Source: Pseudidiomarina halophila (GTDB lineage Bacteria > Pseudomonadota > Gammaproteobacteria > Enterobacterales > Alteromonadaceae). From it: DNA of 64,000 bases. The position numbers were made by a program, and so were the translations under genes. Location of the stretch: assembly GCF_003987215.1 (NCBI RefSeq), contig NZ_PIPW01000002.1:186001-250000 (forward strand), in the 5' to 3' direction. Within the stretch, counting starts at the first letter, position 1, and each line of letters starts with the position of its first letter. Shown here piece after piece: positions 40,058 to 53,153 of this stretch. Under the pieces are notes generated by a model. That model was not told where the DNA came from. It worked only from the letters and a program-made list of their open reading frames with translations, and searched no databases.

Positions 40058-41881
40058 TTAGAGCGGCCACACGATCAGCAGCAGCGGCATGGAAACGATG
40101 ACGACCAGAGCCTGGACAGGTAGACCCAGCTTCCAGTAGTCGCCGAATCGGAAGCCACCAGGGCCCAATATCAGCGTATTATTCTGATGCCCAATCGGTG
40201 TTAAAAACGCACAAGAAGCGCCAATGGCAACGGCCATCAGAAATGAATCCGGGTTGACGTTGAGTACCGATGAAATACTGATTGCTATGGGGCACATGAC
40301 CGCTGCGGTGGCGGCATTGTTCATTAAGTCGGACAAGAACATCGTCACCAACAAAATAGCCAGCAAACCAATGATGGCATTGCCCTGCGCAACGCTATCG
40401 ACCAGGAATGTGGCGATGAGCGCAGCAGTTCCCGATGATTCCATCGCCCCGGCAACGGGTATCAATGCTCCCAGCAGAACAATAACCGGCCAATCGACCG
40501 CTTCGTACACTTTGCGTAGCGATACGGTGCCCAATGCCATAGAGGCGAGTACGCCTAGAGCAAACGACACTGCGGCTGGTAGCCACCCGAGTGCGGCGAC
40601 AGCGATGGCTCCGAGCATGATTAAGCTGGCTTGCCAAATTTTGGCTTTGCTTGGAATGCGGAGCTCGCGTTGCGCCAACGGCACACAACCGTTATCCGCG
40701 GCAAACTCGGCAATCGCCTCAGGTGGACCTTGCATCAGCAGCAAATCACCAGATTGGAAGTTGATCGCCCGAAGCCGCTTCATCGAGCGCTTACCCTCGC
40801 GCGAAAAAGCGAGCAAGTTAATGCCATAGCGCGTGCGCAACAGGATGTCTTTGGCGGAGTTTCCAACGAGTCGGGAGTTAGGTTGAACGACTAACTCGAA
40901 AAGCGCGATTTCGCTTTGTTTGCTCTCTTCGCCGTCATCGTCTTCGTCGGTTTCCGTTTGCTCCTGTGCCTCGGTCTCTTTTTCGTCATCTTCGACCGAC
41001 TCTTCAAGTTTAAGCCCCAGTATGGATAACACATCCTTGAGCGCGTCGGCTTCTGCTTCCAGCATTAATATGTCGCCGGCATGAACGCGACGACCGGGAT
41101 TTGCGGCAATGATTTTTACCTCATGCTGCACAATCCCAATGATCTGTGCATCGACATCTTTCAGTTCCGCTTCAATTTCATGCAGGGATAAGCCGTCAGA
41201 CTTGCTCCCTTCCTCGACCCGAACCTCGGTGATGTACGCACCTGACTCAAAGCCTTCGAGCCCCGACTGTTTGCGTGCAGGCACCAGTCGCCGGCCAATG
41301 AGTGCGATAAAAATCACGCCTGTGGCGGCAACGGCAAGTCCAATAGGAGTGAAGTCAAACATACCGAAATTGCCTAAGCCCGCTTCCGCCCGAAAGCCTG
41401 AAACAATGATGTTAGGTGGTGTTCCCACCAGTGTTGTCATGCCACCTAAAATGGTGCCGAAAGCGAGGGGCATCAATACCTGGCCGGCGGTTAGCTCAAG
41501 CCGTTTCGACACCTGTACGGCAACGGGCATTAACAAAGCCATAGCGCCAACGTTATTCATAAAGCCTGAGAGCAGGGCACCTAAACCAACCAGCGCACTT
41601 ATGCTCACGATGGTACCCGCGTTGGCGGGCAGAGCGACACGTGTCAGGGCGTCAACCGCGCCTGAGTTTTGCAGACCTTGACTCAATATGAGGACACAGG
41701 CGACGGTGATGACAGCTGGGTGACCAAAGCCGCTAAATGCAGCAGAACCATCAACGAGCCCAGCAATAACGCAAGCTAAAAGCGCCGCCAAAGCCACCAT
41801 GTCGTGGCGCCAGCGACCTAGCAAAAACATCACTACGGTCGCCAGCAGGATGGCGAGAATAAGCCACTGATCCAGCGTCAT
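40058..41881 (-). CDS. SLC13/DASS-family permease with two RCK_C domains
   Basis: A 607-residue transporter with two membrane halves (helices in 1-200 and 395-607), of the sodium/anion symporter type ([17 protein letters not shown] and [13 protein letters not shown]; second-half [17 protein letters not shown]). Between them are two RCK_C (TrkA-C) domains, separated by an acidic linker of about 30 residues that is almost all Glu/Asp/Gln (about 40910-41010). Family members carry sulfate, dicarboxylates or other anions. Its ATG overlaps the stop of the ectC gene (ATGA), so it is translated together with ectC. Confidence 0.88.
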
Positions 41882-42279
41882 AAGTCGGTGACTGCCTCGG
41901 CTTCAAGAGGATAAGCGCCGTCTGCTCCATGAATCTCTTTGCCGTTCAGCGGTGGGTTGAACACACAAGCCAATTGTAATTCTAATTGAGCCTTTAGAAT
42001 GTGGTTATCGTTGTTGTTCAGCATGTACACGGTGCCTGGCTTAATCGGGTGTTCAACGCCCGTCGCCAAATCCAGAATAGAGCCTTCGCCACTAATACAG
42101 TAAACCGTCTCTAAATGATTCTTATAGTGAATGGGCGTTTCGGTATTGGCATAGATGGTGGTGATATGAAAGGAGTAGCCCATATTATCGTCCTTGAGGG
42201 ACATTCGGACACTGTTCCAGGTTTCACCATCCACTTTTCGATCTGAGTTACGGCAATCTTCTAGTGTTCGTACAATCAT
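41878..42279 (-). CDS. ectC: L-ectoine synthase EctC (solitary)
   Basis: A 133-residue cupin with the EctC pattern: MIVRTLEDC start, [57 protein letters not shown] and [18 protein letters not shown]. Residues matching the known iron ligands are the Glu of HLETVYC, Tyr of GTVYML and His of NDNHIL. EctC closes N-gamma-acetyl-diaminobutyrate to ectoine. No ectA, ectB or ask_ect gene is in the window. GAGGAG precedes ATG 42279. Overlaps the permease gene by ATGA. Confidence 0.9.
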
Positions 42280-42410
42280 GCAGGTTTCTCCTCGCAAAGC
42301 CCCTAGGCGTTCTTTTGATTCCATAAAACTAGCGCGCTTTCGACTCAGTGTATATAACCAAAGACTTTTCTAATTTGTAAAATCAGCCGTGGGAGATGAA
42401 CTGTAGTTGG

Positions 42411-43148
42411 CTATAACTTAAATCGTGCATAAAGAGGATTATGGTCAGAAACTTTACGTGTATCGATCGCTGAAGTTCCCTGTAGTGACAGATCGCGGTA
42501 GAAGATGAAGTCGAGAGGGTGCTGCCGGTAGGTTTTAATATGATGTGGGTCGACCATAATCGCGTGCTTGAGGCCGACGCTGCGACAGAATTGCAGCAAC
42601 CGCAAGCGGCGTTGGCGGCTCCACACGTTAAAATCGCCGGCAACAATAAGTGGTCCTTTGTGTCCTAATAGCTCTTCTTTGATGAACTCTATTTCTTGAG
42701 AAAATTGGTTTGCACGGACAAAGTTCATCGCATGAACATTGACGACTAACAATGAGCCACCCTCTGCTAACGAGTGATACGAGAGCATGTAACTTTTGTG
42801 TGTTGCGAACATGCCTTCGCGCTTTCTGCTTAGTCGAGTTTGAGCTTCTGTAAAAGCATACTTGCTTGCGGTGAGTACACCATAAATAGAGCGACGTGTT
42901 TGCATATTTGGCGCAATAGCATAAGACCATTGCGGTAGTAACCAGTTACTCTTGGTCGTCAGTTTTGCCTCTTGAAACAACAAAAACAGACAGGGGTAGT
43001 TTGCCAAAACGCCAGCCAAAACACGTTGAAAATCTGGTGTTTCGGTAAGTTTCTGAGTATTCCAACACAACACACCAAATTCTTCGCCATGATGAATAGG
43101 GTGCTCGTGTATGAACTGCTGAGGAATCACGGTTTTTGGTTTAAGCAC
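42411..43148 (-). CDS. Endonuclease/exonuclease/phosphatase (EEP) family protein
   Basis: A 245-residue EEP-fold protein: VLCWNTQKL at the start (Asn ligand), FLLFQEAKL (Glu ligand), VVNVHAMNF, VAGDFNVWS (Asp-Asn), and VSDHNPLYARF (catalytic Asp-His). Resembles E. coli YafD more than exonuclease III. Substrate may be DNA, RNA or a phospholipid; I cannot tell. No signal peptide. Lower-GC DNA begins around here. Confidence 0.82.
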   Translation of the reverse strand: MLKPKTVIPQQFIHEHPIHHGEEFGVLCWNTQKLTETPDFQRVLAGVLANYPCLFLLFQEAKLTTKSNWLLPQWSYAIAPNMQTRRSIYGVLTASKYAFTEAQTRLSRKREGMFATHKSYMLSYHSLAEGGSLLVVNVHAMNFVRANQFSQEIEFIKEELLGHKGPLIVAGDFNVWSRQRRLRLLQFCRSVGLKHAIMVDPHHIKTYRQHPLDFIFYRDLSLQGTSAIDTRKVSDHNPLYARFKL

Positions 43149-43365: not shown

Positions 43366-44676
43366 CTACCGCGCAAGCCGCTGTGCATGTCTGCGCATGC
43401 CATCGAAGATCGGATCAGCAATAAAGCCTGGGAACGTAGCGGGTAATTCACTGGCAACTTTTTGTATCACATCTTCCGTTCGCGCAGCCATTTCATCCAA
43501 TATTCCATTCATGGAATCTTCACTGAAGCCGACGTCTTTCGCTGTCGCCAGAAAGTGCTCGCGACGAATCATACGACATTCGTACTTTCTTCCCCGACTA
43601 CCTTTGAGAGACATGGCTAACTTGAGATCTTTTTCGTGTAAGCCCCTTTTACTAATGGCAGGAAAAGCCGACAAGATGTCATACAGAGGTGTGAGGCGAT
43701 ACTGGCTTCCTCGCCCGATAAAAATTGAAAAGTTCTTCGCATGGCCGTCGGTAGCGCCCAACAACCAAAATAAAACCTGAGCGCGCATAAACACATGGCG
43801 GTCTTCCATCGGATTGCCTGAGCCCAGCAGTTCTTTCATGATTGTTGCGATTGCCGGGCCACCATCGGTTTCATATTTTCTGGCTGGCGAGGTACCTGTG
43901 ACCTGGCAGAAATCTTCTTGCGGAAGACGCATAATCCATGAACCATCTGCGCTGAGCTTGCGATCAAAGCGTTCCACGGCGAGCGCTTTCATACCGTCAG
44001 GGGCGATGATCTCGCAATTTGCCGTGTCAAATCCGTAGGCTTTGGCGATTTTTAGGCACAAATATTCATTTTCAACGCTGTGCTTCATGTCGATGACGCG
44101 GTCATGCGACTGAATTTCGCCAATGGGTAGTTTGATAATATAATTTGTTGGCGTTGCGTTATGCGGTAAATGCCATTGTCCGTCGTGAAACAATAAGGCC
44201 GTTTTCTCTTGCGCTCCGGCAAGTGAGATACGAAAGTCGCGCTGGTCTTTTAACATGCCTAACGGGGTTTTTGATTGGTATCCCCTCAGGATTCTGCCAA
44301 CTTGCTCGTCAGTGAGTGGGCTGGCTTCAATATGTTTAATATCGGGCGCTGGAGAGTGTTGGGGAACCAGTTGAATGGCTCCAACACAATCACGTCCGAT
44401 TTGCGCCAGGATATCAAATGGCTCGGTCGAATTAGCCTGAAAACGAGCGACTATGCGGTCACGAATTTCACGAGAGTCAGGAATAAGGTTGTCAAAATAA
44501 TTATAAACTTCTGGACCGTCGTATCGGGTACTTTGAAGTGGTAATGACATGGATATGCTGCGTCGCCCGGGTGACACCAACCAGCTTTTGTCATAAGTGA
44601 ACTGATTTGCCCCGCTTCGCGTTCGGGTATATTCGCCAACCTTAATGCCATTCATATAAACATCAAGCTTTTCCAT
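43366..44676 (-). CDS. hipA: HipA-family toxin kinase
   Basis: A 436-residue HipA: N-subdomain (LDVYMNGIKVGEYTRTRSGANQF), LAGAQEKTALLFHDGQWHLP (ATP-loop region), ATDGHAKNFSIFIG (catalytic Asp-x-x-x-x-Asn) and YRLTPLYDILSAFP (metal-binding Asp). HipA phosphorylates glutamyl-tRNA synthetase in E. coli and causes persistence; related members act on other targets. Length is normal, all key residues are present. Starts 3 bases after the hipB stop. Confidence 0.93.
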   Translation of the reverse strand: MEKLDVYMNGIKVGEYTRTRSGANQFTYDKSWLVSPGRRSISMSLPLQSTRYDGPEVYNYFDNLIPDSREIRDRIVARFQANSTEPFDILAQIGRDCVGAIQLVPQHSPAPDIKHIEASPLTDEQVGRILRGYQSKTPLGMLKDQRDFRISLAGAQEKTALLFHDGQWHLPHNATPTNYIIKLPIGEIQSHDRVIDMKHSVENEYLCLKIAKAYGFDTANCEIIAPDGMKALAVERFDRKLSADGSWIMRLPQEDFCQVTGTSPARKYETDGGPAIATIMKELLGSGNPMEDRHVFMRAQVLFWLLGATDGHAKNFSIFIGRGSQYRLTPLYDILSAFPAISKRGLHEKDLKLAMSLKGSRGRKYECRMIRREHFLATAKDVGFSEDSMNGILDEMAARTEDVIQKVASELPATFPGFIADPIFDGMRRHAQRLAR

Positions 44677-44679
44677 GAG

Positions 44680-44934
44680 CTACCATCCTTCATTCCATTG
44701 GGAGGCGTTTTCGTTTTGTACTTGGTTACGAGTCGTTATATCAATTTTTAGATTGAGAGCGGCCAGAATTTTGAAAACGGTTTCTAACTTACACGTCTCA
44801 GGGTTATTTTCGAAGTTCGAAACAGTAGCAACACGGATACCGACAAGCTCAGCAATATCTGCCTGAGTGAGGCCTCGTTTAGTTCGGTAGTCTTTGACTA
44901 ATCTACTCAACTGCTCGGGTCGGGTGATATTCAT
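44680..44934 (-). CDS. hipB: HipB-like XRE antitoxin
   Basis: An 84-residue XRE protein: YRTKRGLTQADIAELVGIRVATVS is the helix-turn-helix, and the Trp/Asn-rich C-terminus (ASQWNEGW) is likely the toxin-blocking tail. Represses its own operon as a dimer and neutralises HipA. Start ATG 44934 has GGAG 10 bases before. Directly upstream lie four palindromic operators. Confidence 0.9.
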   Translation of the reverse strand: MNITRPEQLSRLVKDYRTKRGLTQADIAELVGIRVATVSNFENNPETCKLETVFKILAALNLKIDITTRNQVQNENASQWNEGW

Positions 44935-45600: not shown

Positions 45601-46527
45601 TTATGAATTGAGAGCTTCCTTAAGTTTGTTATAAGCTATCCGGTGCCTTTCCTCACTCATTTTTTGGAGGTTATTCAGTTTCCAACGAACAGCAGGCAAC
45701 TGCTCAATATTCGCAATTCCGAGTAATGACCAATCCGGTTTGCGTGACTTAAACGTCAAAAGAAACGACCTCTCCTCGTCAGTAAATGTAGCATGCATAC
45801 GTTTTACAATTTCCTCACGCGCAGCCATAAGCTCCACCAGCGGGACATCAATGTCCGCCATCGACTTAAATTCCCCCTCATAAAGGGCAGCAATATCTTT
45901 GAAATTGGGTCGTAATAATTCCGAAATAGGACGCGGGTGGCTGATCATATAAACAATTAACGCTTTACGAATATCATCAGTGAGGCCTTCATTATCCAAG
46001 AGTAGTTTGACGTCAAACAAGTCCCTAGGGTGTTGCCGATCGAGTGCGGCGCAAATTTTACCAGCATAGAGGTCGGCAAAACTGACCACTGAAATTTCCG
46101 CGAACCCGAATTCATTTTCAACCGCTTCAGTAACATTCAAAGCGGTTGATTCGTAGACCGTTCCTCGAAGAACAGGTGACAGTTCTATCTTTATCTGAGC
46201 CTTTCTACCGCCAACATCACGCTCGACCAATAAACGGAGCGCGTCCTTTTTAACTTCAAATGAGCGTATGACAGTCACATCTTGCAGCTTTGCTGTGAGG
46301 TTCCTCGCTATTTGCTCCAGATGACTTGTGATCGTTTGAAGTGCCTCACCCCGATCCATCATAGGTAAAAAGACGAGGTCAATATCAACCGACAGCCTTG
46401 GAAAATCTCTGACAAATAGGTTAATCGCTGTACCGCCTTTGAGCGCAAAACAGTCATGAGCCGCAACAAATGGTAACACCTGCATAAGCAACTGAACCTG
46501 GCGATAATAAATACTATTTCTATCCAT
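45601..46527 (-). CDS. abiEii: AbiEii-type nucleotidyltransferase toxin
   Basis: A 308-residue protein of the AbiEii/MenT family: FALKGGTAINLFVRDFPRLS followed by VDIDLVF (nucleotidyltransferase G-x-x-T and D-x-D), IKIELSP, and RDLFDVKLLL. In known systems the toxin transfers nucleotides, to tRNA 3' ends in the MenT case, and causes phage abortive infection or stasis. Follows the antitoxin gene by six bases. The GGAG ribosome site is inside the end of the antitoxin gene. Confidence 0.9.
   Translation of the reverse strand: MDRNSIYYRQVQLLMQVLPFVAAHDCFALKGGTAINLFVRDFPRLSVDIDLVFLPMMDRGEALQTITSHLEQIARNLTAKLQDVTVIRSFEVKKDALRLLVERDVGGRKAQIKIELSPVLRGTVYESTALNVTEAVENEFGFAEISVVSFADLYAGKICAALDRQHPRDLFDVKLLLDNEGLTDDIRKALIVYMISHPRPISELLRPNFKDIAALYEGEFKSMADIDVPLVELMAAREEIVKRMHATFTDEERSFLLTFKSRKPDWSLLGIANIEQLPAVRWKLNNLQKMSEERHRIAYNKLKEALNS

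Positions 46528-53076: not shown

Positions 53077-53153
<77 letters not shown>

Follow-up and report, generated by a model that had tools for sequence, protein, structure and literature searches.

The locus lies in a 64-kb stretch of the Pseudidiomarina halophila genome (the window, meaning that whole stretch) and comprises two genes on the minus strand: ectC (41878..42279), encoding a solitary ectoine synthase of 133 residues, and a gene for an SLC13/CitMHS-type permease of 607 residues with two TrkA_C (RCK_C) domains (40058..41881). The stop of the former and the start of the latter share four bases, ATGA (41878..41881, minus strand), an overlap already pointed out in an earlier note on this DNA. 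EctC matches PF06339 with 193 bits (cut-off 27) and NF009806 with 188 bits (cut-off 128), passing both curated cut-offs over its full length. While an upstream ATG would give a reading of 148 amino acids, the 133-codon start appears preferable, being preceded by a good GAGGAG, likely the ribosome-binding site (42288..42293, minus strand), and being the same start as in Pseudidiomarina aestuarii and in Aliidiomarina. The iron ligands of the P. lautus enzyme (Glu57, Tyr84, His92) are present in the alignment as E57, Y85, and H93, as are its substrate residues W21, R25, T40, and Y52, and position 38, Asn in P. lautus, is His here and in all 79 other EctCs compared. The 44 residues that are invariant among these 79 are all intact both here and in the orphan EctC of P. 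aestuarii, and at residues uniform across four Aliidiomarina EctCs the only changes common to both orphans are K71L and M103L. As the two share these changes alone and the invariant positions are identical, there is no sign of changed specificity. By profile search, this is the single EctC of the genome (99.94% complete, 10 contigs).

The permease scores 260 bits against CitMHS and 63 bits against Na_sulph_symp, both over the cut-off, and 121.5 bits against the DASS model TIGR00785, under the cut-off of 198.6. Its remote match in PDB is VcINDY (E 3e-20), of the SLC13/DASS transporters, with which it has the CitMHS/Na_sulph_symp families in common but not the two Ser-Asn-Thr motifs of VcINDY, whose aligned positions read NNV and NNA here. 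The first RCK_C domain (41006..41239, minus strand, approximate) is placed by the NCBIfam TrkA model, which matches residues 215-292 at a score under its cut-off, and the second (40700..40903, minus strand) to Pfam TrkA_C at residues 327-394. The linker between them (40910..40999, minus strand) is acidic, as had been noticed, with 16 D/E among its 30 residues, yet it is variable across six aligned permeases. Two TrkA_C domains are also described for the algal SAC1, in a paper (PMC8780407) in which the TrkA-C-bearing SLC13-like proteins are algal sulfate transporters and SAC1; the P. halophila permease differs from these SAC1/SLT proteins in adjoining ectC. As to expression signals, a GAGG within the ectC tail (41895..41898, minus strand) is a possible ribosome-binding site for the permease, at a spacer of 13 nt, which is long, and this tail is the portion of ectC persisting in three species that lack the gene. 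A conserved 36-nt leader block before ectC (42324..42359, minus strand) is a candidate promoter. With no more than three mismatches, it occurs once each in P. halophila, P. aestuarii, and a third genome, G018, only before ectC or an ectC remnant, and is absent from the other 56 of 59 genomes; its backward control was found in none, and a sigma-70 promoter scan at the block gave no convincing site.

Upstream of the pair, an endonuclease/exonuclease/phosphatase gene (42411-43148, minus strand; NF003842, 234 bits) accompanies the permease in P. halophila and in genomes G024, G018, and G007, in differing orders. Also present in the window are a HipA-type toxin gene (43366-44934, minus strand; HipA_C 183 bits, Couple_hipA 90 bits), which together with the HTH gene upstream of it forms a hipBA-like toxin-antitoxin pair, and, just upstream of that pair, an AbiEii-type nucleotidyl transferase gene (45601-46527, minus strand; 136 bits), a probable component of a type IV toxin-antitoxin system. 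For the window as a whole, Rfam gives a single match at gathering score, a tRNA gene (53080-53153, minus strand).

The partners of ectC in the ectoine pathway are missing. Searching the window by TBLASTN with a single EctA, a single EctB, and an Ask_ect fragment gave no match at E 1e-3 (for ask_ect, the search covered the window), in agreement with the earlier note, which had seen no ectA, ectB, or ask_ect nearby, and the picture of a lone gene also held genome-wide, no complete ectABC operon being found elsewhere in P. halophila. With the EctA model, applied to this genome alone, the best match is 20.9 bits, far below the cut-off of 120.6, and with the EctB model the best of three matches is 169.3 bits, versus a cut-off of 552.2. 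Profile searches found EctB over the cut-off in none of the 26 genomes of the genus and in two of 59 genomes, both outside the family. Diaminobutyrate from another transaminase was considered and rejected: the 169.3-bit match is named acetylornithine transaminase and a second of the three class-III matches BioA, and the best EctB-model match of P. aestuarii (218 bits) passes the TIGR00700 cut-off and falls closest to the GABA transaminases. The P. halophila genome also encodes two solute transporters of the BCCT type, through which ready-made solutes may be imported.

The distribution of the pair is narrow. EctC is encoded in two of the 26 genus genomes, P. halophila (G000) and P. aestuarii (G008, locus L039), and in five of the 59 genomes overall. 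In both Pseudidiomarina species ectC is joined to the permease, so that the ectC-SLC13 pair, whose conservation had been raised as a question in the earlier note, extends to a second species but not beyond two of these 26 genomes. Of the EctC loci taken from genome contigs by TBLASTN, the best 80 of 166 stretches encoding a relative were compared: ectC with the permease and without ectA or ectB is found in one, and in the remaining 79 ectB is beside ectC in all and the permease in none, with ectA not found in two (L052, and L065, at a contig end) and ask not found in eight. EctC matches were present in 24 of 395 genomes drawn from the family (21 over the cut-off) and in 46 of 394 drawn from the order. 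A further sample of 55 EctC loci was assembled from the set, the family draw, and the order draw, some being the same records as among the best 80; P. halophila and P. aestuarii were excluded, and lower-scoring order-draw matches had no locus of their own. EctB lies beside EctC in 48 of these, five are low-scoring and without a match, and two, both from the family member G092, have an EctC-like gene alone; the permease is within the flanks of about 1.5 kb in none of the 55. The two G092 genes (L156 and L161) are divergent, 40-44% identical, with no ectA or ectB match in their flanks, and perhaps resemble the published basal orphans. Among the 46 order-draw genomes with EctC, a match to the permease at E <=1e-60 is found in 15 (three candidates scored per genome), and in P. 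halophila alone are the two genes adjacent, the next nearest being 24 kb apart, in G643.

The same can be seen from the side of the permease. Not one of 33 loci with a permease homologue (at 41-66% BLASTP identity, among them eight of a paralogue type at 41-43%; a subset of the homologue loci found) has ectC beside it. These loci share no single partner gene; in the Aliidiomarina group the neighbours look aroE-like and DUF-like, and in another group they look like helicase-type genes. In five genomes of the Aliidiomarina genus group the best permease homologue (51-59% identical) is encoded elsewhere than ectC. In three of them both genes are on the same contig, at distances of roughly 132 kb, 155 kb, and 1.66 Mb, and in the other two they are on different contigs. 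Comparison shows that permeases of this kind are also encoded in relatives at places away from ectC.

The orphan itself has close relatives in complete operons. P. halophila EctC is 90-93% identical to the EctCs of four Aliidiomarina ectABC-ask operons (L040, L041, L042, and L118), 81-82% identical to those of two Saccharospirillum, and at most 69% identical to the rest of the best 80 loci, L039 apart. In the EctC tree, which was built without the published orphan sequences, the two orphans and the four Aliidiomarina EctCs group at 99% SH-aLRT, their inner order not being resolved, and the orphans stand with operon EctCs, apart from the two EctC-like proteins of G092. By these comparisons the P. 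halophila gene, a true orphan ectC, encodes an ordinary operon-type ectoine synthase of the Idiomarinaceae. The P. halophila locus differs from the Aliidiomarina operons in having no ectA, ectB, or ask and in the permease following ectC; the C-terminus of EctC is the same up to the stop, one residue differing in L118. The operon EctCs, of 132 residues, end in EAVTD followed by the stop codon (EAVND in L118), and the orphans end in EAVTDL, in P. halophila, or EAVTDS, running straight into the ATGA of the permease. As the operon EctC ends exactly there, the fusion point falls in ectC's own, ancestral stop codon. A deletion would have made this joint, removing what followed ectC, either when ectAB was lost or later. 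That an operon-type ectC, its ectAB gone, was joined to the permease at its own stop codon is very probable, and the pair is no younger than the ancestor shared by the P. halophila and P. aestuarii copies. Carry-over of the operon promoter was also considered and rejected, the leader before the orphan ectC giving only chance-level BLASTN matches to six operon loci (best E 0.46).

Scars of ectC are recognizable in related species. The permease is encoded without ectC in G024, G018, and G007 (93-94% identical) and in G006 (77%). Immediately ahead of the permease start, a stretch of 30 nt agrees with the orphan ectC tail at 22 of 30 positions in G024, 24 in G018, 24 in G007, and 9 in G006, controls reaching at most 19 of 30 in 105,932 stretches and at most 14 in 79 stretches placed in the same way at the starts of other genes. 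Held at a fixed place against the ectC ends of six operons, the tails agree at up to 18, 17, and 17 of 27 positions (G024, G018, and G007, respectively) and at 7 in G006; the first three scores were reached by 1, 2, and 2 of 17,773 controls. The tail evidence consists of these fixed-position counts, TBLASTN at the protein level giving nothing above chance (best E 1.2, in G024). In G018 the leader block is retained as well (BLASTN E 3e-11), along with a start codon and part of the first ectC codons. As only the tail, with the leader and start in G018, remains, ectC was lost in these three genomes, and the differing remains suggest two events, one in G024 and one in the line of G018 and G007. 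At least one loss must be counted, and probably two; as the unit probably moved between species, the count is uncertain. In G024, the place of ectC is occupied by a yebG gene (L163, 8458-8733; PF07130, 102 bits), preceded by what, by eye, we take to be a LexA-box-like sequence. A stretch resembling a tRNA 3' end, as at integration sites, is present before the ectC remnant of G007 (L165, directly before it) and of G018 (L164); ARAGORN found no complete tRNA in five regions, including these remnants.

The genes that remain are under selection. Between P. halophila and P. aestuarii, whose differences all postdate the shared junction, barring recombination, ectC has 54 synonymous and 8 non-synonymous changes (dS 1.33, dN 0.026, omega 0.02), a pattern with a binomial P of about 1e-27 under neutrality. 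The permease of the same pair has a dS of 1.50 and a dN of 0.051, and rpoB a dS of 1.17, values of dS above 1 being near saturation. In both species that keep it, EctC thus has been held under strong purifying selection, and its active site is intact. Selection on the permease does not depend on ectC. G018 and G007 have one ectC scar in common, and the simplest reading is that their permeases diverged in the absence of ectC; between them 13 of 87 changes are non-synonymous (omega 0.05), versus a neutral expectation of 75%; purifying selection on the permease after the loss of ectC means that it has a function not needing EctC. Strictly vertical descent cannot be taken as certain and was rejected as such, the kinship by rpoB and by permease being in disagreement: by rpoB, G005 is nearest to P. 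halophila among the eight genomes compared and G024 is far (dS 1.14), yet the closest permease is that of G024 (dS 0.52), and G005 is without the close permease. The permease tree is poorly resolved (support 52, 60, and 93%). The unit, or part of it, probably moved between species.

What then does the lone EctC do? The explanation that we consider best, at about even chances, is that of a solitary, competent ectoine synthase, predicted to draw its substrate from outside EctAB, next to a permease acting independently. EctC would cyclise N-gamma-acetyl-diaminobutyrate (N-gamma-ADABA) not supplied by EctAB into ectoine; the compound might be given off by nearby bacteria that make or break down ectoine, or arise as a by-product of other enzymes. 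That it is the main substrate of the orphan is about as likely as not. The permease would most likely be an independent anion transporter, using the leader of ectC and the overlap for its expression. Two points tell against this explanation: unless its substrate has a source, the conservation of the synthase lacks a reason, which leaves room for a different reaction, and the retention of the pair in two species with its overlap intact would also fit functional cooperation.

The first of these points leads to a rival explanation, which we hold to be rather unlikely, that EctC was kept for another reaction, such as conversion of L-glutamine into the protective ADPC, or for an amide substrate. 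Conservation of EctC in the absence of EctAB agrees with it, as does the formation of ADPC from glutamine by H. elongata EctC, described in a review as very inefficient and with an equilibrium favouring glutamine (PMC5924519); against it, all 44 invariant positions are as in the 79 other EctCs, and the changes shared by the orphans amount to two. The second point leads to the two-gene module proposed in the earlier note, in which the permease would import N-gamma-ADABA or a relative and EctC would cyclise it at high salt. The ATGA overlap, the retention of the pair in two species with purifying selection on both genes, and the fact that both orphan EctCs of operon type adjoin this permease would fit such a module. 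The view of the permease as a dedicated importer of the precursor, however, finds no support: it is retained and selected without ectC, and its relatives are unlinked to ectC (none of the 33 homologue loci). N-gamma-ADABA, moreover, is a zwitterion, and the cargo of DASS-type transporters is anionic, sulfate and dicarboxylates being examples. The sulfate transport by the algal proteins bearing TrkA-C also speaks against import of N-gamma-ADABA. The permease would more likely carry an anion other than N-gamma-ADABA; it is probably not a dedicated importer of the EctC substrate, and we view the module as improbable. Least probable of all is decay, with ectC surviving only for the use that the permease makes of its tail and leader. 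Three other species lost ectC and were left with the tail, or leader and tail, but the 54 synonymous versus 8 non-synonymous changes mark a selected protein and contradict decay, and those species demonstrate that the tail alone can precede a selected permease.

In two reviews, solitary EctC is traced to its first description in Pseudomonas syringae B728a (PMC5924519; PMC6344544), and 145 of 582 EctC proteins are listed as solitary, most in basal clusters, with few isolated ectC genes in operon clusters (PMC5924519). P. syringae, as summarized in that review, imported N-gamma-ADABA yet formed none of the expected ectoine (PMC5924519). The published orphans compared with P. lautus EctC are 37-42% identical to it, and the proposal made for them is that they are either leftovers of the pathway or act on a related substrate (PMC6344544). 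The P. halophila case is like these in having ectC without ectAB and in keeping the iron and substrate residues. It differs in having a readable junction, with scars in relatives, and, at 90-93% identity to Aliidiomarina, appears to be of the rarer operon-cluster kind. For the genus, one paper states that P. terrestris genomes have no ectoine route by KEGG (PMC10893183), and an antiSMASH 'ectoine' cluster is reported, without detail, for P. xizangensis or for the companion strain of the same paper (PMC12893665); if it belongs to the Pseudidiomarina, our guess is a lone ectC of this kind. In a search that left most subscription journals outside its scope, no literature was found on a link between ectC and SLC13 or on an SLC13 permease with RCK domains, nor any from 2019 on concerning substrate uptake for solitary EctC.

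The reviews leave it open whether solitary EctCs should be seen as remnants, as ectoine synthases without a supply, or as other enzymes (PMC5924519; PMC6344544), and one calls their role unresolved (PMC5924519). A normal operon-type enzyme with a readable junction, continued selection, and loss in relatives makes a clean case for the role of such leftover EctCs. It is conceivable, although we find it somewhat doubtful, that after the loss of ectAB some Pseudidiomarina would maintain a fully functional synthase by strong selection, so as to finish ectoine from the N-gamma-ADABA that other bacteria release, or to produce another cyclic protectant; the final enzyme of the operon would then have come under a new leader, next to an anion permease controlled by RCK domains. 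The species with and without ectC provide a natural comparison, open to direct experimental test.
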